The translations under genes were made by a program, and so were the position numbers. 64,000 nt of DNA, taken from contig NZ_LT907782.1 in the NCBI RefSeq assembly GCF_900206265.1, positions 248,001-312,000 of the forward strand. The letters run 5' to 3'. Positions 36,661-64,000 of this stretch are shown piece by piece. This DNA is from Nitrosomonas ureae (GTDB taxonomy: Bacteria; Pseudomonadota; Gammaproteobacteria; Burkholderiales; Nitrosomonadaceae). The stretch's first letter is position 1; the number at the start of each line of letters is the position of its first letter. Under the pieces are notes generated by a model. The model worked only from the letters and a program-made list of their open reading frames with translations. It ran no database searches and had not been told where the DNA came from.

Positions 36661-36689
36661 TTTACATCACAAATGATTATCATTATCAT
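36661..36689 (+). promoter_or_regulatory. Probable sigma-70 promoter under Fur control
   Basis: TTTACA (36661-36666), a 17-base spacer and TATCAT (36684-36689) each match the consensus at five of six positions. The -10 lies inside the hexamer run, so Fur binding would block it. Confidence 0.55.
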
Positions 36690-37198: not shown

Positions 37199-37714
37199 AT
37201 GATGATGCCTGTAGAAAACTGGACTCAGGAATTGAGTACATTGTTCATTATTAATCGCGTGCAATTGCGTCGCGCCGCATACAAAATTTTGGGGGACTGG
37301 GATCTCTCGGATGATATCGTGCAAGATGCTTATATTAAAGTGACCGAAGTTTCGGCAATGCAGAATGTCAAGCAACCATTGGCCTACCTGTTTCAAGTTG
37401 TACGTAATTTAGCGATTGATCGTTATCGGCGCGGTATATTTGAAACAGAGTTGTTTAAGTCTGAGGAAGAAGGATTGTTCGTTCAGGCCTTGACCGGAAT
37501 GCCGGAAACTAATGCAATCAACCGTCAGCACCTTACATTGATGGCACAGGCTTTAGCCAAACTTCCTGAGCGGACAAAGCGGGTTTTTATGCTTTATCGT
37601 TTAGATGGATATACCCATCGAATGATTGCGGATGAACTGAATATCTCAACTTCATTGGCCAATATCCTTATTCATGAGGCAACAGAACATTGCAAGGGTA
37701 TTCTTTTAAAATAA
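37199..37714 (+). CDS. ECF sigma factor, FecI/PvdS iron-starvation type
   Basis: 171 residues. Region 2 is visible as LRRAAYKILGDWDLSDDIVQDAYIKV then QPLAYLFQVVRNLAIDRYRR. Region 4 is LAKLPERTKRVFMLYRLDGYTHRMIADELNIS followed by a recognition helix. This matches the FecI/PvdS/OrbS group. No FecR-like anti-sigma gene follows, so it is likely of the PvdS/OrbS kind, controlled mainly by Fur at its own promoter. It should direct transcription of the mbtH and NRPS genes just downstream. Three in-frame ATGs open the gene; the first is used here. Confidence 0.9.
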   Translation: MMMPVENWTQELSTLFIINRVQLRRAAYKILGDWDLSDDIVQDAYIKVTEVSAMQNVKQPLAYLFQVVRNLAIDRYRRGIFETELFKSEEEGLFVQALTGMPETNAINRQHLTLMAQALAKLPERTKRVFMLYRLDGYTHRMIADELNISTSLANILIHEATEHCKGILLK

Positions 37715-37834
37715 GCTATAAATAGCACGCCAATGAATAATTAGTAATATCAACTAATTATATTAATAATATAGATTCTTCCCAATTTTTTTGCTGTTTT
37801 TTTGCATTCTGTACAAGTCGATTCGTCTAATATA

Positions 37835-37853: not shown

Positions 37854-37896
37854 CAAAAAATTAAAACTATTTATTTGTAAATTTGAGGTATCGATT

Positions 37897-38112
37897 ATGA
37901 CGAGTTGCTTTGATCGTGAAGATGGCGTGTTTCGCGTGCTGGTTAATCATGAAGAACAATATTCCATTTGGCCGGAATGGAAAGCTGTTCCGGGTGGCTG
38001 GAAAGATACTGGCGTATTAGGTGACAAAAAAACTTGTCTGGATCATATCGAAAAAGTCTGGACGGATATGCGTCCATTGAGTCTAAGATTATTCATGGAC
38101 AATCAAAATTAG
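37897..38112 (+). CDS. mbtH: MbtH-like protein
   Basis: 71 residues with the family pattern: [22 protein letters not shown], then [12 protein letters not shown] and [14 protein letters not shown], including the three conserved Trp. MbtH proteins bind and activate adenylation domains of NRPSs. It is the first gene of the biosynthetic run, 13 bases before the thioesterase gene, and should serve the five A domains downstream. Confidence 0.96.
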
Positions 38113-38124: not shown

Positions 38125-38862
38125 ATGCAAGATTCATTAATACTATTTTGTTTGCCATGCGCCGGCGCAAGCGCATCGATGTATCTTCGCTGGCGGCGTT
38201 TATTGCCTTCCTGGGTAAAACTGGTACCGATTGAATTACCGGGTCGTGGTAACCGGATAGATGAGTTGCCCAAAGAGAGCTACAGCGATCTGACACACAG
38301 TCTGTGCGATGAACTGGCGCCTTCTTTACCTGAACAATATGTGCTTTTTGGTCACAGCATGGGCGCTTTGCTGGCTTATGGCATCGCTCAGGGTTTGTGT
38401 TCAAGAGGATTATTTCCACCCAAAGCGCTACTGGTATCGGGCTGTGCGGCACCGATCCGTCAAGACAGCCAGCGTTACAACAACATGCAGAGCGATGCCG
38501 CATTAATAGCAGATTTAGGCAAGCAGGGTGGTACGCCAGAAGAAGTGTTCAGAAATCAGGAGCTGCTGACAATGACGCTGGATTTGTTGAGAATGGATTA
38601 CCGCGTTTGTGGCAGCTTTCAATATTTTCAATTACCGCCTTTACCTATTCCTATTCACAGCTTTGCCGGACGTTCCGATGAAATTAGCATTGTAAAGTTA
38701 AATGATTGGCAATTGGAGAGTACCCGGATATGTACATTGGATTGGTTCGATGGAGGGCATTTCTTTCTTCGTCAATCCGAAGACTGGTTCTTGTTTGTAT
38801 TAAAAAAACGCTTGATAGAAAGTCGAGCAGAGGTGCAATGTGAAACGACTGCATCTGCCTGA
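38125..38862 (+). CDS. Type II thioesterase of the NRPS cluster
   Basis: 245 residues of the GrsT/RifR type. It shows FCLPCAGASASMYLRW at the start, IELPGRGNR, the nucleophile motif GHSMGA (Ser about residue 77) and the late GGHFFL with the catalytic His. Such enzymes clear misloaded acyl groups from carrier domains. It follows mbtH closely, and its last 23 bases overlap the phosphopantetheinyl transferase gene. Confidence 0.93.
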   Translation: MQDSLILFCLPCAGASASMYLRWRRLLPSWVKLVPIELPGRGNRIDELPKESYSDLTHSLCDELAPSLPEQYVLFGHSMGALLAYGIAQGLCSRGLFPPKALLVSGCAAPIRQDSQRYNNMQSDAALIADLGKQGGTPEEVFRNQELLTMTLDLLRMDYRVCGSFQYFQLPPLPIPIHSFAGRSDEISIVKLNDWQLESTRICTLDWFDGGHFFLRQSEDWFLFVLKKRLIESRAEVQCETTASA

Positions 38863-39514
38863 AGTAGTGCCTGCCGCGACTGAGATTTGGTTGATCGAAT
38901 TTGATTTTGATTCGAAGCAACTTATCGATGATTGGTCTTTGTTGAGCGTGGATGAGCAGATTCATTCGCAATGCTTTCGACAGCACGAAGACCGGGTGCG
39001 CGGCATTGTGGCACGCGCGACACTGCGTCGCCTACTGGCAAAATACTTGATGTTGCCCCCTTATAAAATACCGATTGAAAAAAACGAATTCGGCAAACCT
39101 CGTCTGCCGGCTTATTACGGCATAGAGTTTAATGTTTCGCATACAGGTGATTTTGCATTGATAGCATTATCCGCGAAGGGTGAGATCGGGGTTGATATCG
39201 AGTATTGTCATAGAGATGTCAATAATCTTTGGGTGCATGTGCTTTCTTCGGAGGAGCGTGCTCAAGGAATCTGGTCAAATAGAAATTTCATTGATCTCTG
39301 GGTAATTAAAGAATCCGTATTGAAAGCATTAGGATTCGGGATTTCCGAGCACCTGCCGGCTATTACCGTGCGGCCCAATGATGACGGAAGTTATCGTGTC
39401 ATACATGACCAACGTGACTGGACGAAAATTAAGGCGTGGTCCATTGAAGCACCCGCACATTATGCAGCGGCGTTTGCGCTGACAAATCAACATAACTACC
39501 TAACAGATAATTGA
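38840..39514 (+). CDS. Sfp-type 4'-phosphopantetheinyl transferase
   Basis: 224 residues from a GTG start inside the end of the thioesterase gene. The family motifs are FNVSHTGD, IGVDIEYCHRDV (Mg-binding Asp/Glu about residues 116-120) and WVIKESVLKALG (the W-x-KES motif about residue 155). It converts apo carrier domains to the holo form. Seven carrier domains are encoded in the four genes downstream. A dedicated transferase within the cluster is usual for siderophore synthetases. Confidence 0.95.
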   Translation: MKRLHLPEVVPAATEIWLIEFDFDSKQLIDDWSLLSVDEQIHSQCFRQHEDRVRGIVARATLRRLLAKYLMLPPYKIPIEKNEFGKPRLPAYYGIEFNVSHTGDFALIALSAKGEIGVDIEYCHRDVNNLWVHVLSSEERAQGIWSNRNFIDLWVIKESVLKALGFGISEHLPAITVRPNDDGSYRVIHDQRDWTKIKAWSIEAPAHYAAAFALTNQHNYLTDN

Positions 39515-39649
39515 TTTCTATTGCCTTATTTCGCGACTCCACAGAGTTCCAATGAGAGCCGCATCACGGGAAATGATCGAGCATGAAGTATGGTGCTGAG
39601 CTATAAAAGATTTTTGGTGTAAATACATGCAAATTGATTGGGTATAAAA

Positions 39650-42600
39650 ATGAATACAAGATTGATTCCATCCCGCTGTTATCCCGACAATTTCGTTACG
39701 CATCTGCAAACACTGGCGCGTGAACGATCGGTTGATACGGCGTTGATTGTTATTAGTGCGGAAAACGAGATACTCGTGGACAAGAAATTTGATTATGCAT
39801 CACTTGACTTGCAGGTTAGAGCATTAGCTGCGGTAATGCAAAATCATTTTTCACCTGGTGAACGAGCACTGCTGCTACTGAACAATGATGAGCACTATGT
39901 GATTAGCTTTCTAGCATGCCTGTATACAGGAATCATTGCTGTACCCATTTTTCCTCCGGAGTCTCTGCGGGAAAGATATTTGGCAAGACTGCTCGCGATT
40001 GCCGATGATGCGCAGGCCGCTTGTATTCTTACCAGCAGTAAGATTCTTCCGCTGATTACCAGTGTGACAACAGCACAGTTTTCCGAAGCAACCATACTTA
40101 CCGTTGATACGATAGATCAGGCTAACGCATCACGCTGGCAGACTTATATCCCGAAGATGGATGAGATTGCTTTCCTCCAATATACATCAGGATCGACTTC
40201 AACTCCCAAGGGTGTCATGGTGAGTCATCTTAATCTGATGATGAATGCCAAAGCGTTTGAGGAAGGAATGTCAATCAATGAAAATGACATATTTGTCAGT
40301 TGGTTACCGCTCTATCATGATATGGGGTTGATTGGCGGATTATTGCAGCCAATCCATCGCGGTATTCCGGCAATATTGATGACTCCCAATTTCTTTATCG
40401 AAAAACCCGTGCGCTGGTTAGAAGTTATTTCGCGTTATCGCGCAACGGTTAGTGGTGCTCCCAATTTTGCTTTCCAACTCTGTGTCGATCGTGTCAGAAG
40501 TTCGCAATTGCTGGATATCGATTTATCGACTTGGCGTGTTGCATTCTCAGGGGCGGAACCTGTGCGCAGAGAGACCATGCAAGCGTTTATTGAATGTTTC
40601 AGTCCGGTTGGTTTTTCAGCGGGTACGATTTATCCTTGTTATGGTTTGGCTGAAGCCACGCTATTTGTAACCGGAGGGGTGCGCGGAGAAGGAATGCAGA
40701 CTCACGAGTTTTCTTCTGCAGCGCTTGCGCTGGGACGCGCAGAGTTGGCAACGGAAGGAATGCCGGTCGTAGCGTGTGGTTTTCCGGCATCCAATCATTC
40801 AATAAAAATCGTCGACCCGGAGAAACTGATTCCTTTATCTGATGGTAATGTCGGTGAAATATGGACAATGGGTCCAAGTCTGACATGTGGCTATTGGAAA
40901 CGTCCTCAGGAAACTGCGCAAGCCTTCGTGCATATTGAAGGAGAGTGTTGGTTGCGGACTGGGGATCTTGGTTTTATCCACGCCCATCAGTTATACATTA
41001 TGGGGCGATGTAAAGATCTCATCATTATTCGTGGGCAGAATATCTATCCACAGGATGTTGAGCTGACTATCGAGGAAGAAGTGGAAGCCGTTCGGAAAGG
41101 ACGGGTTGCAGCATTTTCCGTGCAAACTGCTGAAGGAGAAGGAATCGGCGTCGCCGTTGAAGTTTCCCGCAACATGCAGAAACTGATTTCGGTCGAGGCA
41201 CTGATTGAGGTGTTGAGTGAAGCAGTCAGCGCAAGCTGTAACGAACCTCTGTCTGTGGCGTTATTGTTAAACCCGGGCGCTTTGCCTAAAACTTCGAGCG
41301 GAAAATTGCAGCGTACTGCCTGCCGCCAGGGATGGCTTGAGCGTACGTTGGATGCGTATGCAATTTATGAATATGGTTATTTTATTCTTGATGAGAAGGG
41401 ACAATTACCTCAAGCATTGACCGATGAAACAGAAATTGCGGTGGCAGCTGTTTGGGAATCGGTATTAAGCCGCACCGTATTGACACGCGAAGATCATTTT
41501 TTTGCAATTGGTGGCAATTCATTAACCGCCATTCAGGTTGCCGCACATATTTCAGAACACTGGTCTATTCAATTTACTCCGCGCAACTTGTTTCACAATC
41601 CGCGATTACATGAGTGTGCAGCGGAAATCAAAGGTTGTTTATCTTCAAGTTCATCGCAGTTCGCATTGGAGAATCGCATCTTACCCCTGCGGAACAAAGT
41701 TAATGCGCTGCCTTTATCTTTCGGGCAACAGCGATTATGGTTTCTTTGGCAACTTGATCCATCCAGCAATGCCTATAACATTCAACATGCATTACGATTG
41801 TCCGGTGCGCTGAATAAGTACGCATTTTATGCAAGTATTGATGATCTGATTGAGCGGCATGAATCATTACATACGATTTTCCGTGTTGCCGATGATGGTG
41901 CGGTGGAACAATTCATTCATCCGGAAATACCCAACGTGGTTACCGGTATCGATTTGCGCGATATTACGATAACAAAGCGCGAAGCAGAGGTTGCAAAGGA
42001 AGTACAGAGAATCATCTCGATTCCCTTCGATTTGACGCAAGGGCCATTGCTGCGCATCGCCTTAATCCAGGTGACCGAGAGCGAGAGCATTTTTGTAATC
42101 ATCATGCATCACATCGTTTCGGATGGGGTGTCCGTGCAAATCTTGCTGAATGAACTCGCCGCATTTTATCAGGCGCATGTGCAGGGTAAATCAGCGTGTC
42201 TCGATAATTTACCCATACAATATGTGGATTATACGGTTTGGCAGCAGGCATGGTTGGAAGCGGGTGAGAAAGATAGGCAACTTGCTTACTGGCGTGATTA
42301 CTTAGGTGACGAACATCCGATTCTACTGCTTCCTGCCAATCGCGTCAGACAACCAGTCACAAGTTATCAAGCCGGACGTTATAGTTTCGATCTGCCTCCC
42401 GATGGGTTGAATAAGTTACGGCAGTTGGCGTTGCGCCGTGGAGCAACCCTTTTTATAACGTTACTGACAGCTTTCCAAGCGTTGTTATTTCGATATACGG
42501 GGCAACAAGACATTCGCGTGGGTGTTCCGGTTGCTGGTCGTAATCGGATCGAAACAGCCCGCCTAATCGGATTTTTCGTTAACACTCAAGTGTTACAGAG

Positions 42601-44941
42601 TCAACTAGATGGCCGAATGTCGCTTGATGAACTCTTGAATCAAACACGGGAATCTGCGATTAATGCGCAAAGCTACCAGGATCTTCCTTTTGAACAATTG
42701 GTCGAGGCACTGCATCCTCAGCGTGATTTGCGCCATAGCCCGTTATTTCAGGTGACCTTCAATCACCTGTTGAAGGATTTTCGTATTTTTCAGGAATTTT
42801 CGGGACTTGCACCTAGCGATTATTCACTTCCCGAGCAGTCTGCACAACTCGAGTTGCGGCTGGAGACAATCGAATTACCGGATGGTAGCGTAAGTGCCAG
42901 TTTTATTTATGCCTCCGATCTTTTCAATTCGTCATGGATTAAGCGATTGGGACAGCATTATCTGCGCATCCTGGAGGCATTAGCAGATTGTCCGGGTGTG
43001 ATGATCAGCGATATCGATTTGTTAAGTGAAGAAGATAAGCAACAACTTGAAACTTGGGGAAACCATTGGTCTGATATATCAGTTTTTCAGCCCATTCATC
43101 AACTAATCGAACATCAGGCAGAGAGTAATCCTAACAGAGTGGCTATAATCTCGGGTCACATCGAGTTGAGTTATGCGGAACTCAATTGCAGATCAAACCA
43201 ACTGGCGCATCGACTGATCGACCTCGGTGTCAAGCCAGAAATGGGGGTCGGTATTGCAATTGAACGTAATTCTATTGAATTGATTATAGGTCTTTTGGCC
43301 ATCTTGAAGGCGGGTGGCGGCTATGTTCCGCTTGACCCGGAATATCCAACAGAGCGATTGGATTATATGCTTGAAGATAGCGGTATTCAGCTTCTGCTGA
43401 CACAAGCGCATATTAAATCAAGAATTCCTCATAAAGAAGGCATAGAAATACTGGCGCTTGATGCGCTTGATTTGAGCGCTGAGCTGAAAATCAATCCTGA
43501 GATTGCTTTGCATGACCAAAGTTTAGCCTATGTTATTTACACTTCAGGTTCAACCGGTCGACCTAAAGGAGTTCCGGTCGCGCATGGTTCTTTAGCCATG
43601 CATTTGAGCGCTATTAAAGAAATTTACGATGTTCGGCCAGACGATCGTGAATTGATGTTCTTCTCCATGAATTTTGATGCAGCTGCCGAGCAATGGATCA
43701 CTCCCTTGACACAAGGTGCCGCGTTAGTACTTTCCTCAACCAGTGATTTGGCAGGCGATGGTTTTGTGGATCTGATCGAGAAACATCGCATTACTACGCT
43801 GCATCTTCCTCCAGCCTATCTGAGAATGCTGCTGCCGTTGATGAGCGGAAAAGCACACACGGTTCGTACTTGCATAGCAGGTGGGGAGGCGTGGTATGCC
43901 ACCGATGTAATGGCGGTCCGGGATGCGTTTCGGAATGCCCGGCTAGTCAATGCATATGGTCCTACTGAAACCGTGATTACTCCCGCTGCATGGATTAGTC
44001 ATGCAGATAAGGATGGCCGTATTTGTATAGAAAGTGAGTATGTTCCAATCGGCGTGCCGGTTGGTGCACGCAACCTATATGTTCTGGATGCGCAACTCAA
44101 TCTTGTGCCGCCAGATGTGATAGGCGAGTTGTATGTGGGTGGAGAAGGATTGGCCCGTGGTTATCTGCGGCGACCGACTTTAACCAGTGAGCGCTTTATA
44201 CCGGATCCGTTTGGTTCACCGGGTAGTCGTCTTTATAGAACAGGTGATTGGGTGCGCTGGCGCGACGAAGGGAAACTGGAATATCTGGGTCGCGTCGATC
44301 AACAAATCAAGATTCGTGGTTTCCGCGTAGAGTTGGGTGAAATCGAAGCGCAAATACTTGCCCAGACCGGCGTGCGCGAAGTGGCGGTGTTAGCGCATGA
44401 GGGTCATGGCGACTTGCGTTTAGTCGCTTATCTGGTGCCGCATAACGGCGTGCAGCTGAGTTCGACATTGCTAAAAACATCGCTAGCAGCGGCCCTTCCC
44501 GAATATATGATTCCCGGTTTGTTTGTTTTTCTGGAAGCTTTGCCGCTCAATCCCAACGGAAAAATAGACCGGAAAGCACTGCCTTTACCGGAGCAATATG
44601 ACAAAACTGATTACGACCCGCCCGTCAACGCACTGGAAATGGTTATAGCCGAGATCTGGTCGGAAGTTCTGGAGATTCCTCAAGTCGGATTGCAAAACAA
44701 TTTTTTTGATCTGGGAGGTCATTCGTTATTGTTGATCAAGGTTAAGCAAAAATTGGAAGAACGCTTAAATATTCACATAGCTATCGTAGATCTTTTCAAA
44801 TATACCACTGTAGCAAGCTTGGCAAAATTTGTTAGTCAAGGAGATACCAGGAATGCATCTTTACAGCGTCATCGGGAGCGGGCGCAGCGGCAACGTAGCA
44901 CTTTTATTCAACGAAAACAAAAAGCGGAGAGGATACAGTGA
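39650..44941 (+). CDS. Hybrid starter synthetase: FAAL-ACP-C-A-T
   Basis: 1,763 residues from the ATG at 39650; a TTG four codons earlier is possible. Order: fatty acyl-AMP ligase (about 30-590; FLQYTSGSTSTPKGVMVSH, WLPLYHDMGLIGG, GRCKDLIIIRGQNIYPQD); ACP (GGNSL, Ser624); condensation domain (about 685-1130; MHHIVSDGVS); adenylation domain (about 1145-1645; VIYTSGSTGRPKGVPV, AYGPTETVI); and carrier (LGGHSLL, Ser1692). The FAAL loads a free fatty acid onto the ACP, and the C domain joins it to the first amino acid. Specificity residues read by eye are D-A-E-H-C-A-A-I-T-K, with no secure match I can recall. The stop overlaps the PKS start in TGATG. Confidence 0.93.
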   Translation: MNTRLIPSRCYPDNFVTHLQTLARERSVDTALIVISAENEILVDKKFDYASLDLQVRALAAVMQNHFSPGERALLLLNNDEHYVISFLACLYTGIIAVPIFPPESLRERYLARLLAIADDAQAACILTSSKILPLITSVTTAQFSEATILTVDTIDQANASRWQTYIPKMDEIAFLQYTSGSTSTPKGVMVSHLNLMMNAKAFEEGMSINENDIFVSWLPLYHDMGLIGGLLQPIHRGIPAILMTPNFFIEKPVRWLEVISRYRATVSGAPNFAFQLCVDRVRSSQLLDIDLSTWRVAFSGAEPVRRETMQAFIECFSPVGFSAGTIYPCYGLAEATLFVTGGVRGEGMQTHEFSSAALALGRAELATEGMPVVACGFPASNHSIKIVDPEKLIPLSDGNVGEIWTMGPSLTCGYWKRPQETAQAFVHIEGECWLRTGDLGFIHAHQLYIMGRCKDLIIIRGQNIYPQDVELTIEEEVEAVRKGRVAAFSVQTAEGEGIGVAVEVSRNMQKLISVEALIEVLSEAVSASCNEPLSVALLLNPGALPKTSSGKLQRTACRQGWLERTLDAYAIYEYGYFILDEKGQLPQALTDETEIAVAAVWESVLSRTVLTREDHFFAIGGNSLTAIQVAAHISEHWSIQFTPRNLFHNPRLHECAAEIKGCLSSSSSQFALENRILPLRNKVNALPLSFGQQRLWFLWQLDPSSNAYNIQHALRLSGALNKYAFYASIDDLIERHESLHTIFRVADDGAVEQFIHPEIPNVVTGIDLRDITITKREAEVAKEVQRIISIPFDLTQGPLLRIALIQVTESESIFVIIMHHIVSDGVSVQILLNELAAFYQAHVQGKSACLDNLPIQYVDYTVWQQAWLEAGEKDRQLAYWRDYLGDEHPILLLPANRVRQPVTSYQAGRYSFDLPPDGLNKLRQLALRRGATLFITLLTAFQALLFRYTGQQDIRVGVPVAGRNRIETARLIGFFVNTQVLQSQLDGRMSLDELLNQTRESAINAQSYQDLPFEQLVEALHPQRDLRHSPLFQVTFNHLLKDFRIFQEFSGLAPSDYSLPEQSAQLELRLETIELPDGSVSASFIYASDLFNSSWIKRLGQHYLRILEALADCPGVMISDIDLLSEEDKQQLETWGNHWSDISVFQPIHQLIEHQAESNPNRVAIISGHIELSYAELNCRSNQLAHRLIDLGVKPEMGVGIAIERNSIELIIGLLAILKAGGGYVPLDPEYPTERLDYMLEDSGIQLLLTQAHIKSRIPHKEGIEILALDALDLSAELKINPEIALHDQSLAYVIYTSGSTGRPKGVPVAHGSLAMHLSAIKEIYDVRPDDRELMFFSMNFDAAAEQWITPLTQGAALVLSSTSDLAGDGFVDLIEKHRITTLHLPPAYLRMLLPLMSGKAHTVRTCIAGGEAWYATDVMAVRDAFRNARLVNAYGPTETVITPAAWISHADKDGRICIESEYVPIGVPVGARNLYVLDAQLNLVPPDVIGELYVGGEGLARGYLRRPTLTSERFIPDPFGSPGSRLYRTGDWVRWRDEGKLEYLGRVDQQIKIRGFRVELGEIEAQILAQTGVREVAVLAHEGHGDLRLVAYLVPHNGVQLSSTLLKTSLAAALPEYMIPGLFVFLEALPLNPNGKIDRKALPLPEQYDKTDYDPPVNALEMVIAEIWSEVLEIPQVGLQNNFFDLGGHSLLLIKVKQKLEERLNIHIAIVDLFKYTTVASLAKFVSQGDTRNASLQRHRERAQRQRSTFIQRKQKAERIQ

Positions 44942-52500: not shown

Positions 52501-52835
52501 TACCCGATCCGGAATTAATCGACATGAACCTCTATGAAGAACCGCAGGGCGAAGTGGAAGAAGCATTGGCGGCAATCTGGAAAGAAGTATTGGGTCTTCA
52601 TCGAGTGGGACGCAATGACCATTTTTTTGAGCTGGGAGGACATTCTCTGTTGGTTTTGCAAGTCCAGCAGAAATTACAGGCCATGAGGCGAATTACATTA
52701 CCATTGCGCGCCTATTTTGAGCACCCTCTTTTGAGAGAAATTGCTGCGATGGTACAAGCACAGAGTGTTTCAATTGCCGAAGAATGCAGCACATTGGATG
52801 AAATGGCAGAAATAATTAATTTATTGGAGAATTGA
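49512..52835 (+). CDS. NRPS module C-A-T
   Basis: 1,107 residues, starting two bases after the PKS stop. A Gln/Arg-rich helical N-terminus (LTPEQQQRLKQRLQ) may dock to the PKS. C domain: SYAQHRHWFLWQLDP, MHHIISDAWS (about residue 182; Ala replaces the usual Gly after Asp). A domain (about 509-990): IIYTSGSTGKPKGVAV, MYGPTETTIW, NANGKVERK. Carrier: LGGHSLL (Ser1045). Specificity residues read by eye are D-I-L-Q-C-C-M-I-W-K, agreeing at seven of ten with the glycine code DILQLGLIWK as I remember it. Bases 49662-51521 are nearly identical to 52986-54845 in the next gene. Confidence 0.95.
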   Translation: MENNNDLTQRRARLTPEQQQRLKQRLQINSDQVPPKSTISRRHASESALVSYAQHRHWFLWQLDPQSTAYHLSGVLRLLGKLNTEALQVSFQTLVARHESLRTVFRANAEGLPEQIIEPEGKFELTMISLCDLPVGQRIQRARDEAIRINATPFDLTQGPLLRVALIQVEAEEHHLVVVMHHIISDAWSNRIIIDEFAACYRAHIEGDPLLLPELPVQYADYAQWQRNWLEAGEKDRQLIYWRNQLGTEHPVLQLPTDHARSSNSSYQAAQHDFTLPDSLATRLQCQAQDRGATLFMMLLTGFQALLYRYTGQGDIRVGVPIANRHRAEIENVVGLFVNTQVLRNTIDSRMPLSIILEQSREAALGAQAYQDLPFEELVEALQPERSLNQNPLFQVMFNYLREDYRALQQLPGLTVEEYQPRERGAQFELTLDIVERPEGRIDARFTYATELFEPGTIKRLSEHYLKVLEQLAECPQRCAGDITLLSVDEWERLKNWGVNERRYANIEPVHRLIEHQVAVHPDSIALIFADTELSYAELNCRANRLAHRLIALGVKPETRVGIAVERSIEMIVGLLATLKAGGAYVPLDPDYPQDRLNYMAMDSGIELLLTQSHIRQKIPLLAECEILELDRLDLAKEPEHNPKINLHGENLAYIIYTSGSTGKPKGVAVRHHALGHFILSMLESPGMEAGNTLISVTAFSFDIAGLEIYLPLSAGARLVLASRTISQDGPQLVRLLKNYQPNVFQSTPAGWRVLLAAGWKGWQEENHLSLKCLCGGEALSIDLVNQLQALNVELWNMYGPTETTIWSIIGKINQKVITLGAPIAATRLVILDTELNPVTCGMPGELYLGGAGLARGYHNKSGLTAQRFVADPFNEKGERLYRTGDLVRWRSDGQIEYLGRLDHQIKIRGFRIELGEIETQLLLQPQIREAVVVTKERLDSIRLVAYISCREESKINTAELRDVLAESLPDYMIPSAIVILESLPLNANGKVERKLLPDPELIDMNLYEEPQGEVEEALAAIWKEVLGLHRVGRNDHFFELGGHSLLVLQVQQKLQAMRRITLPLRAYFEHPLLREIAAMVQAQSVSIAEECSTLDEMAEIINLLEN
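49662..51521 (+). repeat. 1,860-bp near-identical direct repeat, copy 1
   Basis: It covers the C domain and the A domain up to the KPKGVAV loop. By eye it differs from 52986-54845 only at 49777 (T versus C, Val versus Ala) and 51347 (A versus T, Gln versus His). Similarity stops abruptly at both ends. Offset between copies is 3,324 bases. Confidence 0.95.
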
Positions 52836-55800: not shown

Positions 55801-58800
55801 TACCGCTGAATGCGAACGGAAAAGTGGATCGCAAGCTCTTGCCGGAGCCTGAATTTGTCAGCACTGATCAATATGAAACACCCCAAGGGGAAATAGAAGA
55901 GACATTGGCGGGAATCTGGCAGGAAATTCTGGGTATCGACCGTATAGGACGCAACGATAATTTTTTCGAGCTGGGAGGTGATTCGATTCTCAGTTTGCAG
56001 ATTGTCACCAAAGTACATCGTGCAGGCTGGAAAATCACACCGCGGCAATTATTCGAGCGGCAAACGATAGCTGCCTTGGCGGTATTGACCAAACCGGTGG
56101 AAACGGTTGTCGGGATTATTCGTGAACAGGCCGTTTCTACGGGTAAGCCCATTCCCATGTTGCCCATACAACTCGAGTTTTTTACACAACAAATACCCTT
56201 GAGGCACCATTGGAATCAGGCCATGCCGTTGAGAATCCGGCAATCTCTGAATGTGCTGTTACTGGAGCAGGCGCTAAAGGCGATTGTTCAACATCATCGA
56301 GCGTTACGTTTTTGTTATGAAGAACAGATCGATAGCCGGTGGACACAAATTCCCACAGAATCAATATCGCAAGACCTGTTATGGAAGCGGCATGCCGCTG
56401 ATGCGAAACAATTAATCGCGCTCTGCAACGAAGCGCAGCGTAGCCTGAATTTGCAGCAAGGTCCGTTGATCCGAGGCATGCTCGTCGATATGGCCGATCA
56501 TACCCAGCGGTTGCTGCTGGTAATTCATCATTTGGTGATTGACGGTGTTTCTTGGCGCATTCTGATGGAGGATCTGGAAACTGCTTACATGCAGGCGTTG
56601 CGCGGTGAAGCAATTCTCCTCCCTGAGACTACCAGTGACTATTCCATATGGACTCAGCGGCTGCAACAGTATGCACGTAATCATGCAGCTGAATTTGCTC
56701 ATTGGCAGAATCTGGCAAATATTTCCGCTGATTTGCCCTGTGATTTTCCGCAAGGTTCAAAGCGCACGCAATGCTATCAGAAAATCACGATAAACCTGAA
56801 TCAGGAACAGACTCAGGCTTTACTCAAAGATGCGCCGGCTGCTTATCGCACGCAAGTCAACGACCTGCTCCTTACCGCACTGGGTAATGCGTTATGTCGC
56901 TGGAGCGGTCATAAAGAAATTCTGGTGGATCTCGAAGGTCATGGGAGAGAGGATCTCTATCCTGAAATTGATCTTTCGCGCACAATTGGATGGTTTACAT
57001 CCATTTTTCCAGTAGCCCTAGGCGCATCGGGAGATCTGGCTCAGAGAATCAAGCAAACGAAAGAATATTTACGGTGCATACCGAACAAAGGGTTAGGTTA
57101 TGGTCTGTTTAAATACTATGGTACCGAGGAGCAACGGCAAATTCTAGCCGAACTATCGAAGGCGCAAGTGGTATTTAATTACCTGGGTCAATTTGATGCC
57201 AATTTTGCAGAAGATTCGCTCTGGACGCTGGCCGAGGAATCAGTCGGCGAATCGATGGATGCCGGCGTTCTCCAGCAGCACGATTTATTGGTTAACAGCC
57301 ATGTATACGGTGGTGAGTTTTTTCTGGAAGTGGGTTATAGCGAAGCGCGATATCTTAAAACAACGATAGAGGTATTTGTAAATGCGTTTGTGGTTGAGCT
57401 TGAAGGTGTGATTGAGCATTGCAAAGGAGATATTCAGGGTATCACACCGTCTGATTTTCCTTTGATTCAAATGACTCAGGATGAATTGGACAGTTTACCG
57501 ATACCTATTGCGCGGCTCGATGATCTTTATCCGTTATCGCCAATGCAAACCGGGATGTTGTTCCATAGCGTATTTGATACGAATGAAGATATTTATCTGA
57601 ATCAATTACGGGCGGATGTGGAGTACTTGGATGTGGAGCGTTTCAAAGCTGCCTGGGAGGCTGCGATAGATCGGCACGAGATATTGCGTACCGGTTTTGT
57701 TCAGGAAGGAAAGACCCCGTTACAATGGGTGGCCAAAATCGCTGAGCTGCCATTCATGGTGCATGACTGGCGTGATCTGAATATTCATTCGCAAACTGCC
57801 TGGCAGCAGGATCTTGATGCAGTGGCACAATCAGAACACACATTGGGTATTGATTTAACAAAACCACCGCTGGTTCGTATTGTCATTGTGTGCCTCGCTG
57901 ATAATCGCTATCACGTCATTATGACGATTCATCATCTTTTGTTGGATGGATGGAGCACTTCTCAGCTAATGGGAGAAATACTGCGGCAGTATAGTGGTGA
58001 AACACTATCCCCGCCCCGCGCCCGATATCGGGATTTTATTCAATGGTTAAAAGATCGCGATCAGAAAAAATCAGAAATATATTGGCAGGAGCTATTGCAT
58101 CATACTACCGAGCCGACAAGATTGGCCAATGTGATTTCCATGCCTGTAAGAAACATGGGATATCAAGAGCATGTACATCCACTTGACTCAGCTATTAGTA
58201 ACAAACTGATTTCTTTTGCAAAACGTGAGCGTATCACGATAAATACCTTGCTGCAGGCTGTTTGGGCTCTTTTGTTGGGGCACTATACAGGTCAGCAAAG
58301 GGTTACCTTTGGAGTGACGATAGCCGGTAGACCCTCGGATTTGCTCGCAGCGGATCAGATTCTCGGACTCTTTATCAATACCTTGCCAGTGAGCATTGAA
58401 CTTCGGCCCGAATTGACAGTGGGTAGCTGGTTGCGTGATTTACAAGTGCAAAACCTGGCTTCGCGCGAACACGAGCATACGCCTTTATATGAAATTCAAC
58501 GCTGGGCGGGACAAAGCGGGCAAGGGTTGTTTGATAGTATTTTAATCTTTGAAAACTATCCGATTGATGAGGCATTCAAACAATATACGCCTGGAAAGCT
58601 TATTTTCTCTAACGTCAGGGGACTGGAGACTACCAATTATCCAATGACGGTTTCGGTCATAGAAAATGACGGGTTAAGTTTGCACTATGGATACGATTGT
58701 CAATTCTTTTCAGAAGTAACCGTCACTGGCATTGCAACTCGGATCGAGCAATTGCTTGAAAATATTACTCATAGTGAAAACAAATGCTTACATGATATTA

Positions 58801-61800
58801 CATTTTTAGGTGCAGCAGAATGGAAACAGCTAAGAGATTGGGGGATCAACGATCAGCGCTATAATCGTAATGAACCCGTGCATCGTTTGTTTGAGCGGCA
58901 AGTAAATAAACAACCTGACGCCATAGCACTCATTTTTGATGACGTGCAGCTCAGCTACGCGCAATTGAACGAGCGTGCAAATCGATTGGCACACCGGCTG
59001 ATCGCCCTGGGAGTAAAGCCGGAAAGCCGGGTAGGAATCGCGGTTGAACGCTCGATCGACATGGTAATCGGATTACTGGCGATACTCAAAACAGGAAGCG
59101 CGTATGTACCGCTTGATCCGGATTATCCGCAGGAACGGTTAAATCATATGATTGCAGACAGCACAATTGAATTGCTGTTAACTCAAAGCCCGTTGCGGAA
59201 CCGGATTCCTCATTCGGTGGAGTGTAATATCCTGGAGTTGGATAGGTTGGATCTAACCGGGTATCCGGATACCGATCCCGATGTGAGGCTGCATGATGAA
59301 CATCTGGCCTATATCATTTATACCTCCGGTTCTACCGGAAAACCTAAAGGCGTCGGCGTTGTTCATCATGCATTGGCTGAACATACATATGTTGCCATCG
59401 ATTTTTTCAAACTGTGCAGCACAGATCGGATGTTGCAATTCTCCACTATCAATTTTGACGGCTTTATTGAACAGTTTTTCCCCCCTTTATGCGCGGGTGC
59501 AGCCATTGTGTTACGGGGCTCCCAGTTATGGGATAGCGAAATGTTTTATCGTGAATTGCTGGATAAACAGATTACCGTTGCCGATCTCACCACTGCCTAT
59601 TGGTTTTTGCTCGTGCAAGATTTTGCCAAGCTAGGGCTGCGCAATTACGGTGCGTTGCGGCAAGTGCACGCGGGTGGCGAGGCCATGTCTCCGGAAGGAA
59701 TCAAAGCTTGGCGGCAAGCCGGTATGGCTGGAATCACATTGTTGAACACCTATGGACCCACAGAAGCAGTGGTTACCGCCACAGTTGCAGATTGTGGCGG
59801 GAATAAATCCGTCGATAATTTCGACTCGACTCAAGTGACAATTGGGAAACCTTTGCCAGCACGACACATTTACTTACTCGATGCTAATTTGACACCCGTT
59901 ATAGGCGGTGTGGCCGGTGAATTGTGTATCGGTGGTGAGCTGCTCGCACGGGGTTATCTCAATCGATCCGCATTAACTGCGGAGCGGTTCATCGCAGATC
60001 CTTTTGATAGCAAAGGAGGGCGACTTTACCGCACCGGCGATCTGGCCAGATGGCGAGCGGATGGACAGATTGAATATCTGGGGCGTCTGGATCATCAGGT
60101 TAAAATCAGAGGATTTCGTATTGAATTAGGTGAAGTTGAATCCCAACTATTGTTACAGCCGGGAATCAGAGAGGCCATTGTGGTGGTGAAGGAAGGATCG
60201 ACCGGAGCAAAGCTTGCCGCGTATATATCCCTGCATGCAGGGGCGACGATCGATACAACTGAGCTAAAAGAAACTCTGACGCAATCTTTGCCTGACTATA
60301 TGATTCCTGCGGTATTTGTCGTGTTAGAGAGTTTGCCATTGAATGCGAATGGTAAGGTTGCCCGAAACTTGCTGCCCGAACCGGAATTTGTCGGCACAAG
60401 TCAATACGAAGCGCCACAGGGAGAAGTAGAAGAAGCGCTAACGGCCATTTGGATAGAAGTATTGGGAATCAAGCGCATCGGGCGAAATGATAACTTCTTT
60501 GAGTTGGGGGGAGACTCTATCCTGAGCTTGCAGATTGTTACACAAGCACGCCGAATAGGATGGAAGCTTTCACCACGGCAACTATTTGAACAACAGACGA
60601 TTGCCGCGTTGGCGCTGGTGACAGAAACAATGTCAGAACCTGTGCTTCATGAATCACAGCCTGATCGCGGTTATCTGGAAGATTATCTCGATGAAAAAAT
60701 CATTGCAACACTGCCATTCGATAGTGACGAAATAAGAGATATTTATCCGCTGTCCCCGATACAGGAGGGCATGTTATTTCATACCCTGGAGGCGCCTGGT
60801 ACCGGCCTTTATGTAACTCAAATCAGCGTTGAGGTGGAAGGGCTTGATGCAGCGCGTTTGGTGCAGGCTTGGCAGACGATGATTGCCCGATATCCGATAT
60901 TGCGCACCGCTTTTTTATGGCGAGCGGGGCTTGCCCGCCCATTGCAGATTGTTCTCAAGCAGGCGGCAATGTTGGTCAATCACTTGGATTGGCGCGAAAA
61001 GGAGCTTAAAGAGGAACACATTACTGCGTATGCTGATCAAGAGTTGAAACGTGAATTTGATTTTCTCAATCCTCCATTGGCGCGATTAAGCCTGATCCAG
61101 ATTGATGAAAATCGCCACCAATTAATATGGACTAAACACCATATATTGCTGGATGGTTGGAGCGATTCGATACTAATCAGTGATTGGTTACGCTATTACA
61201 ATGGTGAAAAACTTGCACCGATCGGTCCCGATTACGGTACGTATGTGCACTGGCTGGAAAAACAAGATAAACAGGCTTCACAACATTTCTGGCAAGCTGA
61301 GCTTAGTGGCATTGAAGGGTCGACATTCTTGTCGCAAGCCGTTACCAAAAAGGTTGATAAGGAAGATCGACCGGAGTTTGCTCAAATTTATACGCGATTG
61401 AATGTTGAGGAAACGCGTTCATTGCAAATTTTTGCGCAACAAACACACATTACACTGAATACTTTTGTCCAGGCCGCCTGGGCATTATTGTTGCAACGAT
61501 ATACGGGGAAACAGACGGTTGTTTTTGGAGCCACGGTGTCAGGTCGGCCACTGGGGTTGTCTAAAGCGGACGAAATAGTCGGATTATTTATCAACACGAT
61601 TCCTATTCCGGTAGAGCGGCATAGTCATCTAACAGTCAGAGAATATCTAAGCGTGCTGCAGAAAACCAATGCGCGCTTGCGCGATTACGAGCACACATCG
61701 CTGGCCGATATTCAACGCTGGGCGGGATTTTCTGGTCAGCCGTTGTTCGATAGCATTATCGTATTTGAAAATTACCCGATTAACGCAGCCTTACGTGATA

Positions 61801-64000
61801 CTGAGTCATATGGATTGCGCTTTGGCGCAATGCAAGGCAAGGGATTGACAGGATATACGATGGATTTGCAGGTGACGGTCGAGGATACGTTGGAAATAGA
61901 ATACTCATACGCTTGCAATGATCTCACCGATCAATTTGTACTGATTCTGCGTAATCATATGGAACTTTTGATGTGGGAAATGATGAGCGATCCGCAACGA
62001 ATTGTTGGAGAACTGGGATGGCTGGGGAAACAAGAGCTTGACCGATTATTCCTTCTTCGTGGCAACTCAGATTCACGCCATGTGTCGCAGGCTTATCAGC
62101 CGGTTCATCGTCAGATCGAACGTAATGCAGCACTACAACCGGATGCCATTGCGTTGCTGATGGGGGACCAGGAAATATCTTATGCTGAACTGAATATGCA
62201 AGCGAACAAATTGGCTCATCGACTCATGCAACTAGGGATCAAACCGGAAATACGTGTAGGTGTTGCGATGGAGCGTTCTCTGGATATTATTGTCACGCTA
62301 CTGGCCATACTTAAATCCGGCGCGGCTTATGTTCCTCTCGATCTGGATTATCCAACTGATCGGCTTGCATTCATGATAAAGGACAGTGTCCTATCGCTAT
62401 TAATCACGCAAAGTAAAGTATTGTCGAAGCTCGAATTTGATGCCGCTGTACCTAAACTGGCCATAGATGCTATCAAGCTTGAGGCTGAATCAGCACGTAA
62501 TCCGGAGATACCAGTTCATGAACATAATCTTGCCTATGTCATTTATACATCAGGATCCACGGGTTTGCCAAAAGGTGTAGCGGTGACGCATGGTCCACTT
62601 GCCATGCATTGCCAGGCGACCGGCCGGATTTATGATATGCATCCCCGTTCCTGCGAATTGCTTTTCATGTCATTTTCATTTGATGGTGCACATGAACGTT
62701 GGTTAACCGCATTGACTGTCGGAGCTGGTCTAGCGATACGGGATCAGGAATTGTGGACTGCCGAGCAGACCTATGATGCTTTGCGTCATTATAGTATTAC
62801 TAACGCCGCATTCCCTCCAGCTTATCTGGGGCAGATTGCCGAGTGGGCGATGCCACGTAATGATCCGCCACCGGTAGAACTCTATGTGTTTGGCGGTGAA
62901 GCCATGCCCAAGACTTCGTATGATTTGATCCGCCAAACCTTGCGGCCGCGCACGCTGATCAATGGTTATGGGCCGACCGAAACTGTGGTGACGCCATTGA
63001 TTTGGAAAACACAAGCCAGCAACAGCTTTGATTGCGCTTATGCACCGATTGGACGCCCTGTAGGTGAACGCGTTGTGTATGTCTTGGATGTCGATATGCA
63101 ACCGGTGCCAATGGGTATTGTCGGTGAGCTTTATATCGGCGGGTATGGATTGGCACGCGGATATCTGGGACGTGCCGGTTTGACCGCGGAACGCTTCATT
63201 GCCGACCCGTTTGATGAGCATGGCGGGCGCCTGTATCGTACCGGTGATCTGGTGCGGTGGATGGATGATGGCAATATCGAATATGTTGGCCGTGCCGATC
63301 ATCAGGTAAAAATACGCGGATTTCGCATTGAGCTGGGTGAAGTTGAAGCGCGTATCCGAGAAGTAACCGGCGTTGCCGATACGGCAGTGGTAGTGCATGA
63401 CGGTGTAACGGGTGCGCAACTGGCGGCCTATGTGGTTCCTGTTGAGGAAAAGTCGACGCAGAACCTGATGGCACAGTTGAAGCAAACGCTTGTCAAACGC
63501 TTGCCCGAATACATGCTGCCCGCGCACTTCATTGCGCTAACTGCACTGCCACGTTTACCGAACGGCAAACTCGATCGCAAACTGTTGCCACAACCCGGTG
63601 TCTTGGTGAGCGATACCTACCAAGAGCCATCGACACCTGAAGCCAAAATGCTCGCAGAGATATGGCAGGAAGTTCTGGGTGTGGCGCGTGTGGGAGAAAC
63701 AGACAATTTCTTTGCGTTGGGCGGCGATTCGTTGTCGAGCTTGAAAGTCATTGCGCGTATACGCAGCCTTAATAATGAGAAATTGAATTTCAAGCTGCGG
63801 GATTTGATCCAGCGACCAACTATTGCCAGTTTGCTGGGATTGGATAAACGTGCTGCAACCGATACCAGTGGATTATTGGCGCTCAACCAATTTAGCGAAA
63901 ACGTGACAATTAAACCATTATTCTGCATCCATGCCGGATTGGGTACCGTTTTTGACTACCAGCCGTTGGCGCGACAATTGCAGGGCGTGCGGGCTGTGTA
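52836..64000 (+). CDS. NRPS C-A-T-E-C-A-T-C-A-T-TE (cut by the window edge)
   Basis: Open to base 64000, over 3,720 residues. A TTG start directly after the previous stop is supported by GGAG six bases upstream. Order: C1 (50-490, HHIISDAWS); A1 (508-990; code D-G-E-C-Y-V-G-I-T-K); T1 (LGGDSI, Ser1050); epimerisation (1105-1540; HHLVIDGVSW, VVFNYLGQFD); C2 (1560-1995; HHLLLDGWS); A2 (2010-2510; D-G-E-D-V-A-T-V-T-K); T2 (Ser2561); C3 (2630-3075; HHILLDGWS); A3 (3088-3582; D-G-E-A-Y-F-G-V-T-K); T3 (Ser3632); thioesterase from about 3691 (LFCIHAGLGTVFDY). So three residues are added, the first turned to D form, and the chain is released here. A1 and A3 share the FDGAHERW core and may load similar residues; none is securely assigned. 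Confidence 0.95.
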   Translation, partial: MELNKQDIAKRFGALSVEKQKAFLNTLKERGIDFSLLPIVRQSLENSPILSYAQHRHWFLWQLDPQSTAYHLSGVLRLLGKLNTEALQASFQTLVARHESLRTVFRANAEGLPEQIIEPEGKFELTMISLCDLPVGQRIQRARDEAIRINATPFDLTQGPLLRVALIQVEAEEHHLVVVMHHIISDAWSNRIIIDEFAACYRAHIEGDPLLLPELPVQYADYAQWQRNWLEAGEKDRQLIYWRNQLGTEHPVLQLPTDHARSSNSSYQAAQHDFTLPDSLATRLQCQAQDRGATLFMMLLTGFQALLYRYTGQGDIRVGVPIANRHRAEIENVVGLFVNTQVLRNTIDSRMPLSIILEQSREAALGAQAYQDLPFEELVEALQPERSLNQNPLFQVMFNYLREDYRALQQLPGLTVEEYQPRERGAQFELTLDIVERPEGRIDARFTYATELFEPGTIKRLSEHYLKVLEQLAECPQRCAGDITLLSVDEWERLKNWGVNERRYANIEPVHRLIEHQVAVHPDSIALIFADTELSYAELNCRANRLAHRLIALGVKPETRVGIAVERSIEMIVGLLATLKAGGAYVPLDPDYPQDRLNYMAMDSGIELLLTHSHIRQKIPLLAECEILELDRLDLAKEPEHNPKINLHGENLAYIIYTSGSTGKPKGVAVEHGALAMHVQAIGELYEMTTEDRELQFASINFDGAHERWLVPLAFGSALMPRDNDFWSVERTISEIDNHRITIACFTPSYLQQLAEFSGNTGQNLPIRSYTVGGEAMSRTSFNFIQKTLLPPRIINGYGPTETVITPLIFKAYPETQFDSSYMPIGSLVGDRTAYILDAEFNLVPQQVIGELYLGGTGLARGYLNKASLTAERFIANPFDAEGGRLYRTGDLARWRMDGQIEYLGRADHQVKVRGFRIELGEVEAQLQLQPDVREAVVVVKEGPGGVRLVAYVSLHVGYASDAAMLRESLGNTLPDYMIPSAIIVLESLPLNANGKVDRKLLPEPEFVSTDQYETPQGEIEETLAGIWQEILGIDRIGRNDNFFELGGDSILSLQIVTKVHRAGWKITPRQLFERQTIAALAVLTKPVETVVGIIREQAVSTGKPIPMLPIQLEFFTQQIPLRHHWNQAMPLRIRQSLNVLLLEQALKAIVQHHRALRFCYEEQIDSRWTQIPTESISQDLLWKRHAADAKQLIALCNEAQRSLNLQQGPLIRGMLVDMADHTQRLLLVIHHLVIDGVSWRILMEDLETAYMQALRGEAILLPETTSDYSIWTQRLQQYARNHAAEFAHWQNLANISADLPCDFPQGSKRTQCYQKITINLNQEQTQALLKDAPAAYRTQVNDLLLTALGNALCRWSGHKEILVDLEGHGREDLYPEIDLSRTIGWFTSIFPVALGASGDLAQRIKQTKEYLRCIPNKGLGYGLFKYYGTEEQRQILAELSKAQVVFNYLGQFDANFAEDSLWTLAEESVGESMDAGVLQQHDLLVNSHVYGGEFFLEVGYSEARYLKTTIEVFVNAFVVELEGVIEHCKGDIQGITPSDFPLIQMTQDELDSLPIPIARLDDLYPLSPMQTGMLFHSVFDTNEDIYLNQLRADVEYLDVERFKAAWEAAIDRHEILRTGFVQEGKTPLQWVAKIAELPFMVHDWRDLNIHSQTAWQQDLDAVAQSEHTLGIDLTKPPLVRIVIVCLADNRYHVIMTIHHLLLDGWSTSQLMGEILRQYSGETLSPPRARYRDFIQWLKDRDQKKSEIYWQELLHHTTEPTRLANVISMPVRNMGYQEHVHPLDSAISNKLISFAKRERITINTLLQAVWALLLGHYTGQQRVTFGVTIAGRPSDLLAADQILGLFINTLPVSIELRPELTVGSWLRDLQVQNLASREHEHTPLYEIQRWAGQSGQGLFDSILIFENYPIDEAFKQYTPGKLIFSNVRGLETTNYPMTVSVIENDGLSLHYGYDCQFFSEVTVTGIATRIEQLLENITHSENKCLHDITFLGAAEWKQLRDWGINDQRYNRNEPVHRLFERQVNKQPDAIALIFDDVQLSYAQLNERANRLAHRLIALGVKPESRVGIAVERSIDMVIGLLAILKTGSAYVPLDPDYPQERLNHMIADSTIELLLTQSPLRNRIPHSVECNILELDRLDLTGYPDTDPDVRLHDEHLAYIIYTSGSTGKPKGVGVVHHALAEHTYVAIDFFKLCSTDRMLQFSTINFDGFIEQFFPPLCAGAAIVLRGSQLWDSEMFYRELLDKQITVADLTTAYWFLLVQDFAKLGLRNYGALRQVHAGGEAMSPEGIKAWRQAGMAGITLLNTYGPTEAVVTATVADCGGNKSVDNFDSTQVTIGKPLPARHIYLLDANLTPVIGGVAGELCIGGELLARGYLNRSALTAERFIADPFDSKGGRLYRTGDLARWRADGQIEYLGRLDHQVKIRGFRIELGEVESQLLLQPGIREAIVVVKEGSTGAKLAAYISLHAGATIDTTELKETLTQSLPDYMIPAVFVVLESLPLNANGKVARNLLPEPEFVGTSQYEAPQGEVEEALTAIWIEVLGIKRIGRNDNFFELGGDSILSLQIVTQARRIGWKLSPRQLFEQQTIAALALVTETMSEPVLHESQPDRGYLEDYLDEKIIATLPFDSDEIRDIYPLSPIQEGMLFHTLEAPGTGLYVTQISVEVEGLDAARLVQAWQTMIARYPILRTAFLWRAGLARPLQIVLKQAAMLVNHLDWREKELKEEHITAYADQELKREFDFLNPPLARLSLIQIDENRHQLIWTKHHILLDGWSDSILISDWLRYYNGEKLAPIGPDYGTYVHWLEKQDKQASQHFWQAELSGIEGSTFLSQAVTKKVDKEDRPEFAQIYTRLNVEETRSLQIFAQQTHITLNTFVQAAWALLLQRYTGKQTVVFGATVSGRPLGLSKADEIVGLFINTIPIPVERHSHLTVREYLSVLQKTNARLRDYEHTSLADIQRWAGFSGQPLFDSIIVFENYPINAALRDTESYGLRFGAMQGKGLTGYTMDLQVTVEDTLEIEYSYACNDLTDQFVLILRNHMELLMWEMMSDPQRIVGELGWLGKQELDRLFLLRGNSDSRHVSQAYQPVHRQIERNAALQPDAIALLMGDQEISYAELNMQANKLAHRLMQLGIKPEIRVGVAMERSLDIIVTLLAILKSGAAYVPLDLDYPTDRLAFMIKDSVLSLLITQSKVLSKLEFDAAVPKLAIDAIKLEAESARNPEIPVHEHNLAYVIYTSGSTGLPKGVAVTHGPLAMHCQATGRIYDMHPRSCELLFMSFSFDGAHERWLTALTVGAGLAIRDQELWTAEQTYDALRHYSITNAAFPPAYLGQIAEWAMPRNDPPPVELYVFGGEAMPKTSYDLIRQTLRPRTLINGYGPTETVVTPLIWKTQASNSFDCAYAPIGRPVGERVVYVLDVDMQPVPMGIVGELYIGGYGLARGYLGRAGLTAERFIADPFDEHGGRLYRTGDLVRWMDDGNIEYVGRADHQVKIRGFRIELGEVEARIREVTGVADTAVVVHDGVTGAQLAAYVVPVEEKSTQNLMAQLKQTLVKRLPEYMLPAHFIALTALPRLPNGKLDRKLLPQPGVLVSDTYQEPSTPEAKMLAEIWQEVLGVARVGETDNFFALGGDSLSSLKVIARIRSLNNEKLNFKLRDLIQRPTIASLLGLDKRAATDTSGLLALNQFSENVTIKPLFCIHAGLGTVFDYQPLARQLQGVRAV
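52986..54845 (+). repeat. 1,860-bp near-identical direct repeat, copy 2
   Basis: Partner of 49662-51521. It begins exactly 150 bases into its gene, as copy 1 does in its own, and ends after GCCGTG, just before the residues that choose the substrate. Confidence 0.95.

Follow-up and report, generated by a model that had tools for sequence, protein, structure and literature searches.

Among the described systems closest to the locus analysed here are the variochelins, in which a chain with a fatty acyl start contains an Arg that one PKS module extends to a guanidino beta-hydroxy-gamma-amino acid, and in which two acetyl-hydroxyornithines are complemented by a beta-hydroxy-Asp (PMC10999976, excerpt). 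For the crochelins, one sentence of a review states that a gamma-amino acid binds iron. The mbtH promoter of the serobactin locus in Herbaspirillum seropedicae carries an iron-starvation (IS) box whose activity needs the PvdS-like sigma factor PfrI (PMC6037834, excerpt). For pyoverdine, the published PvdS box reads TAAAT-N16-CGT, and the genes are spread over seven regions in P. fluorescens SBW25 (PMC2235872, excerpt).

We analysed a 64-kb window (bases 248001-312000) of a Nitrosomonas genome assembled as one contig of 3.06 Mb. The haem enzymes of bacterial ammonia oxidisers demand much iron. Siderophore production by these organisms is stated to be unstudied in vitro, and N. europaea is described as having no siderophore-making system of its own (both in the consulted part of PMC9693385); the announcement of the N. 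ureae Nm10 genome lists receptors and, in the excerpt available, mentions no synthesis (PMC4786657). A limited literature search found no description of the product proposed below. From sequence analysis we consider it highly probable that the window contains the assembly-line half of a hydroxamate siderophore pathway whose other half lies at C1:506866-525636, and we predict with very strong confidence that the product is an iron-regulated hydroxamate siderophore.

The assembly line and its predicted product

All genes of the cluster, as read from open frames, Pfam profiles and motifs, lie on the + strand. The first encodes an ECF sigma factor (37199..37714; Pfam Sigma70_r2/r4_2) that exceeds the cut-off of the NCBIfam sigma70-ECF superfamily, with no specific equivalog above its own cut-off in the matches shown, and that has an orthologue in 9 of the 10 related stretches compared. 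It is followed by an MbtH-like protein (37897..38112; MbtH, 81.8 bits), a type II thioesterase (38125..38862; Thioesterase, 143 bits), an Sfp-type phosphopantetheinyl transferase (38840..39514; ACPS 48 bits, AASDHPPT_N 40.4 bits) and four megasynthase genes, N1-N4. N1 (39638..44941, 1767 aa), which also matches FAAL and NRPS structures in the PDB, is organised as FAAL-ACP(T)-C-A-T, N2 (44938..49509, 1523 aa) as KS-AT-KR-ACP(T), N3 (49512..52835, 1107 aa) as C-A-T, and N4 (52836..64763, 3975 aa) as C-A-T-E-C-A-T-C-A-T-TE. N4 ends 763 bases beyond the window, whose share of the gene (52836..64000) includes about 85 bases of the TE domain. None of the four genes has an internal stop codon, which excludes a broken cluster in this genome, and N2 retains the KS motifs TACS and HGTGT, the AT motifs GHSVG and HAFH (the latter presumably of the malonyl type), and KR and carrier motifs. 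The gene and domain order given in a preliminary description of this DNA is thus intact, and its count of five amino acids and one PKS extension agrees with five A domains and one PKS module. Its assignment to the siderophore-type NRPS/PKS systems is likewise upheld by the intact megasynthases, together with the iron-starvation-type promoters and the hydroxamate and transport genes of the second locus described below.

The A domain of N1 (A1) has the code DAEHIGAIT, which is Arg-like by alignment, with His at position 278, the fourth place, where the printed Arg consensus has Asp (PMC12283262); the code is fixed in all 12 Nitrosomonadaceae clusters read, one of them with V for I. The N3 code, DILQLGMIW, aligns with Gly codes, and this slot varies across clusters, being missing from some and carrying in others a code for Gly, Ser, Orn or something else. 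Within N4, the A3 code DGECTGGIT occurs in 15 of 15 clusters with the module read, and DGECTGGITK is printed among the modified-Orn codes (PMC12283262, section 11). The same section prints DGEDHGTVTK as an Orn code; the A4 code DGEDHGTVT is found in 12 of 16 clusters, with DADDNG(A/V)VT in three and a Ser code in one, and DGEDHGTV is read as Lys in excerpts of two pyoverdine papers (PMC3207962, PMC7139650). The A5 code, DGEAVGGVT, is present in all 17 clusters with the module read and is one or two residues off the printed modified-Orn codes. A search of the literature gave no match for the A1 and A5 codes.

A3 and A5 are accordingly predicted to be hydroxyornithine A domains and, since an E domain follows A3, the residue added there should be D. 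The predicted product is acyl-Arg-malonate-Gly-D-OHOrn-Orn(or Lys)-OHOrn, in which the ligands would probably be two or three hydroxamates; a third donor may come from the A4 residue or from the Arg-malonate unit, which is fixed, unless two hydroxamates are enough. No match to TauD (PF02668) was found in the genome, although the control matched in E. coli, and there is no Asp code among the five A domains, which argues against a beta-hydroxyaspartate of the variochelin type; the predicted ligands are hydroxamates. The other Asp hydroxylase family, PF05118, also had no match in the genome, but its control likewise matched nowhere.

Of the named records, that of N. ureae Nm13 (G007) was the nearest found, with a PKS 93% identical and with N1 and N2 92-93% identical to those of the window. 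That strain has, in place of the Gly module, an A(DADDNGAVT)-T-E module that is fused to N4 (L051, L035, L036). As read from the two sequences, the difference is a module exchange between close species.

A second locus and putative iron-starvation promoters

The preliminary description suggested a search for ligand-tailoring and transport genes downstream of the cluster, and by its measure their lack there would have counted against a siderophore. No siderophore tailoring or transport gene was found among the frames scanned over 14 kb past the NRPS (to window position 78536, two short frames at L004:9312-10235 left out); this region contains a Kazal-type protein, two unknown frames, a tyrosinase, IS transposases, an integrase beside tRNA-Ser, an aspartokinase-type gene, LpxK and a hydrolase. 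Such genes are instead present at C1:506866-525636, 194 kb from the NRPS cluster, where a profile search of the genome located them (L032/L126), so the downstream expectation was aimed at the wrong location.

The Lys/Orn N-oxygenase family, sought across the whole genome, is matched at C1:515219 (404-405 bits). The match lies in an open frame at C1:515072-516517 (+), whose true start is probably later, and the encoded PvdA-like ornithine N-hydroxylase has the L-ornithine 5-monooxygenase 3s5w as its best PDB match (428 bits, the next being 300 bits). Upstream is a GNAT hydroxamate acyltransferase (C1:514099-515205, +; Acetyltransf_8), so that the genome carries both the N-hydroxylase and the hydroxamate acyltransferase genes expected of an NRPS-made hydroxamate siderophore pathway. 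Downstream, on the same strand, are a FhuA/FoxA-like TonB-dependent siderophore receptor (C1:516551-518821; TIGR01783, 320 bits against a cut-off of 223.5), an esterase (C1:518871-519836) and an outer-membrane factor (OEP), HlyD and RND pump (C1:519890-525636). The - strand carries an exporter operon that consists of a cyclic-peptide ABC exporter (C1:512133-513803; TIGR01194, 432 bits against a cut-off of 286), a PepSY-TM protein (C1:510878-512128; PepSY_TM), a long-chain acyl-CoA ligase (C1:509146-510924) and, as its fourth gene, an acylase (C1:506866-509130). Siderophore receptor and peptide exporter are thus both present above their cut-offs. Only one weak match to a FecCD-type permease was found, a point against the pathway, though one that would fit a scheme in which the PepSY-TM protein frees the iron in the periplasm.

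Two candidates nearer the NRPS genes were set aside. Upstream of the cluster, window 29798-34206 contains a PqqU-like TonB receptor with PepSY, cupin and HpcH/HpaI-type genes, an arrangement found in only two (G060 and G007) of 10 related stretches; the receptor itself (31373-33460) was rejected as the cognate one, as it best resembles PqqU, below cut-off, and lies near the cluster only in those two. A tyrosinase with PPC domains lies 2.6 kb downstream of the NRPS, outside the window (L004:4363-5841, window-equivalent 67363-68841). It was dropped as a tailoring enzyme, with no match in 10 related stretches, six of which reach at least 17 kb past the NRPS end; of the others, G052 and G011 stop before that end, G007 reaches only 4 kb beyond it and G053 shows no N4.

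Upstream of the sigma gene lies a Fur-box-like hexamer array, (ATTATC)5, at 36676..36705, about 494-523 bases before the start codon and with no strand assigned. A search of the 3.06 Mb genome with its 24-base form, up to three mismatches being allowed, hit a single place, in three overlapping registers, and the backwards control gave no hit. The best match of the array to the 19-base Fur consensus is 17 of 19 positions; when the 700 bases upstream were shuffled 100 times by mononucleotide, the highest score was 14. Among nine other relatives, however, a score of at least 16/19 upstream of the sigma gene is reached only in three (G060, G007 and G059), and the remaining six score 12-15, four of them no higher than their own shuffle maximum. 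The Fur hexamers of the preliminary description are there, but the array is poorly conserved, which leaves Fur regulation of the sigma gene plausible rather than proven. No STN-bearing transducer was found beside the sigma gene.

An IS-box-like mbtH promoter, TGCAT-N16-CGTC (37803..37828, +), is a TGNAT variant that differs from TAAAT; of the 22 Nitrosomonadaceae stretches examined, which come from 21 of the 27 hydroxylase-bearing genomes introduced below and from G086, 21 have TGNAT-N16-CGTC before mbtH and the 22nd has TGAAA. Scanning for T, any, any, A, A/C/T, 16 bases and CGTC within 481 bases, we found TRNAY-N16-CGTC before the acyltransferase in 27 of 27 genomes (TAAAY in 24) and TAAAY-N16-CGTC before the exporter in all 24 genomes where the exporter is adjacent; the exporter-side box was not found in the three where it is non-adjacent. 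An exact scan of the genome with TRHAY-N13-ATTCGTCW hit five places, namely the three promoters (that of mbtH included), one site inside the PKS gene and one at C1:1414483, where about two are expected by chance if base frequencies are equal; with one mismatch there was no excess (86 hits against 90 in the backwards control). Since the motif was derived from these same promoters, the weight of this evidence rests on conservation and on the match to the published PvdS box. The features of a PvdS-type regulon, an ECF sigma gene and TAAAT-N16-CGT-type boxes at target operons, are thus present, their dependence on the window's sigma factor is predicted, and we infer an iron-starvation (PvdS/FecI-like) role for that protein. 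Just downstream of the mbtH box is an inverted repeat, AATAAGAAGCATTCTTATT (window 37835-37853), with 8-base arms and a 3-base centre; its 13-base core is exact in 20 of 22 Nitrosomonadaceae stretches, and it is possibly an operator or a 5' hairpin.

A tentative course of events can be outlined. Iron limitation would cause Fur to release the ECF sigma gene, and the sigma factor would read promoters of the form TRNAY-N16-CGTC that precede mbtH and the operons of the exporter and the hydroxylase, the motif being observed and the binding presumed. The PvdA-like enzyme and the GNAT acyltransferase would, judging by their families, make N5-acyl-N5-hydroxyornithine. In the domain order observed, FAAL would load a fatty acid and N1 add the Arg-like residue, which N2 is predicted to extend with malonate to a beta-hydroxy-gamma-amino acid; N3 would then add Gly and N4 D-hydroxyornithine, Orn (or Lys) and a terminal hydroxyornithine before TE releases the chain, all substrates being predicted. 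The cyclic-peptide ABC exporter would carry the product to the periplasm, where the acylase may strip the fatty acid, and the RND pump would export it. Finally, the ferric complex would re-enter through the FhuA/FoxA-like receptor, with reduction in the periplasm by the PepSY-TM protein.

One probable pathway in two places

The distance between the two loci in this genome, and the Kazal, tyrosinase, transposase, integrase and housekeeping frames downstream of the NRPS, would also suit a reading in which N1-N4 make a lipopeptide other than a siderophore, such as a surfactant, an antibiotic or a signal, and in which the hydroxamate locus, 194 kb distant, belongs to a separate siderophore system. 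We regard this as very improbable. All six condensation-family matches in the genome are the six of this cluster, and the NIS synthetase profile IucA_IucC had no match in the genome (its control matched in 2 of 14), so that the hydroxylase would otherwise be without an assembly enzyme of these kinds. Box-like promoters are common to both loci, and the NRPS has modified-Orn codes. The survey covered 85 genomes of the genus, among them the one analysed here. The hydroxylase, counted at more than 700 bits, occurs in 27, all of which carry PKS or NRPS pieces; weaker oxygenase matches in G079, G065 and G002 (158-173 bits) were excluded, but the count may be 28, as the match in G079 is partial, at 62% identity, and that genome is only 66% complete. 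The PKS (at least 58% identity) is present in 24 of the 27 and in none of the 58 others, and the remaining three (G058, G050 and G025) have NRPS pieces on the hydroxylase contig (Fisher p 3e-18, or 9e-23 with these three counted, both uncorrected for phylogeny; the 58 were searched for PKS, and NRPS pieces were sought in the hydroxylase genomes). Both halves are also present in G086, of another genus of the same family. In a Mantel test that used 19 of these 27, PKS and oxygenase distances show only a moderate correlation (r 0.38; 0 of 2000 permutations).

Of the 27, 12 have the two halves within 40 kb of each other on a single contig, five have them on one contig but at least 138 kb apart (G000, G060, G053, G059 and G028), and ten, all drafts, have them on separate contigs. 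In N. supralitoralis APG5 (G054) the acylase begins 0.8 kb past the NRPS end and all eleven genes of the second locus are ordered as here; in G029 nine are in order. The split in this genome looks like a rearrangement, and the mobile genes near the NRPS end may be its cause. Two of the 27 carriers look incomplete: in G028 the PKS is divided between two pieces that lie some 440 kb from each other on the same contig (G028:C1, 1233350-1235254 and 1676675-1679362), and in G053 (L047, L048) no N4 follows a cut N3 in the stretch taken, which contains 300 N. Either may reflect real decay or an assembly fault.

Ammonia oxidisers have a high need for copper, and the tyrosinase-family gene downstream of the NRPS might be taken to suggest that the product mainly binds copper or some other metal rather than iron. 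This too seems highly unlikely, as no counterpart of the gene was found in the ten related stretches (six of them reaching at least 17 kb past the NRPS end), the receptor belongs to the FhuA/FoxA class, and the promoters agree with the iron-starvation box in the literature. A hydroxamate siderophore for iron remains our reading, and within it the fate of the acyl tail is a separate matter. That the product is a fatty-acylated lipopeptide, as first described, agrees with the FAAL start, but the end product is uncertain, since the exporter operon includes an acylase and an acyl-CoA ligase, which may remove and recycle the tail. The acylase has a lipobox-like start (LLLGAC) and may be a periplasmic enzyme that acts on the precursor. 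In pyoverdine synthesis, which has a FAAL start and the exporter PvdE, PvdQ has such a role. Somewhat short of even, but a real possibility, is that the mature siderophore retains its fatty acid and is an amphiphilic lipopeptide, like the variochelins, whose tail stays on (PMC10999976, excerpt), and that the acylase has another purpose, for instance to cleave different acyl amides or to recycle siderophore that has been taken up. The enzyme is closer to glutaryl-7-ACA acylases, its best PDB matches (443 bits), than to PvdQ (141 bits), and at E 1e-40 it is matched in 20 of the 85 genomes, all within the 27, which leaves seven carriers without a match; tail removal may therefore differ between species. 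Against retention stands its position behind an IS box in the exporter operon, after the long-chain acyl-CoA ligase, together with the lipobox-like start, an arrangement that recalls PvdQ-type removal of the tail in the periplasm.

A dedicated lipopeptide siderophore had been called notable for a Nitrosomonas; with 27 of 85 genomes carrying the pathway, that needs toning down. The pathway is ordinary in kind, little noticed in ammonia oxidisers and widespread, in about a third of the Nitrosomonas sampled, and, being conserved and with readable promoters, it is directly testable in cultured strains. It also illustrates how much of a pathway, here half, can escape a scan confined to one window or one cluster, as the ligand and transport genes would here score as absent. 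The fixed and swapped modules constitute a natural experiment on iron-binding residues. A joint reading, which we consider rather unlikely, is that a third of Nitrosomonas species make a siderophore family with an invariant part, made up of the two hydroxyornithines and the N-terminal Arg-malonate unit, and with two middle slots in which Gly, Ser, Orn and an unread residue replace one another. The invariant beta-hydroxy-gamma-amino acid would then itself be the third iron-binding group, as stated of a gamma-amino acid in the crochelins, and the tail would be trimmed where the acylase is present and kept where it is not.

Comparison with known systems

The likeness to variochelin-type siderophores claimed in the preliminary description holds for the first half of the assembly line. 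Variovorax sp. PDNC026, which we infer to make variochelin, has the same sigma-MbtH-TEII-FAAL-A-PKS start, with a FAAL 57% identical and the A1 code DAEDLGAIT, and both the FAAL-loaded acyl start and an Arg-plus-PKS unit of the variochelin type are present here, A1 being predicted to select Arg. The predicted product would thus share with the variochelins, as partly described in the source cited above, the fatty acyl start, Arg with one PKS unit and two hydroxyornithines. The likeness does not extend to the TauD-made beta-hydroxy-Asp, methylmalonate unit, Pro and Ser of variochelin; here there is neither TauD match nor Asp code, the AT motif is HAFH and three codes are of the Orn type.

By analogy, the serobactin mbtH promoter is the closest experimental model for the mbtH box described here. 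The serobactin locus, as far as the excerpt describes it, shares the IS box before mbtH and a fatty-acylated siderophore (here predicted), but contains two TonB receptors, one of them a transducer, whereas the receptor here is 194 kb away. Pyoverdine systems (PMC2235872, in part) are alike in their TAAAT-N16-CGT boxes, PvdA-like hydroxylase, peptide exporter and scattered genes, and unlike in that here no chromophore module was seen, one PKS module is present and the acylase is nearer to glutaryl-7-ACA acylase than to PvdQ. In Colwellia psychrerythraea GAB14E (L103), a cluster reads exporter-sigma-MbtH-TEII-FAAL-A(DAEHIGAIT)-PKS-Ser-DVWNMGLIH x2-TE; it has the identical A1 code, two modified-Orn-like codes and TAAAC-N16-CGTC before mbtH, but no E domain was seen and it has one Orn-type module fewer than here.

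Related FAAL clusters outside the Nitrosomonadaceae also occur in Methylosinus trichosporium OB3b and Eleftheria terrae, besides Variovorax PDNC026, and those of the first two are annotated with a TauD dioxygenase. The OB3b cluster, a FAAL-NRPS-PKS with MbtH and TauD, is on plasmid pOB3b3 (L177); the siderophore pathway of this strain is stated to be unidentified in the consulted part of PMC9693385. Set beside these relatives, two of them with TauD, the Nitrosomonas form appears to be a TauD-free, apparently all-hydroxamate branch of a known kind of siderophore.
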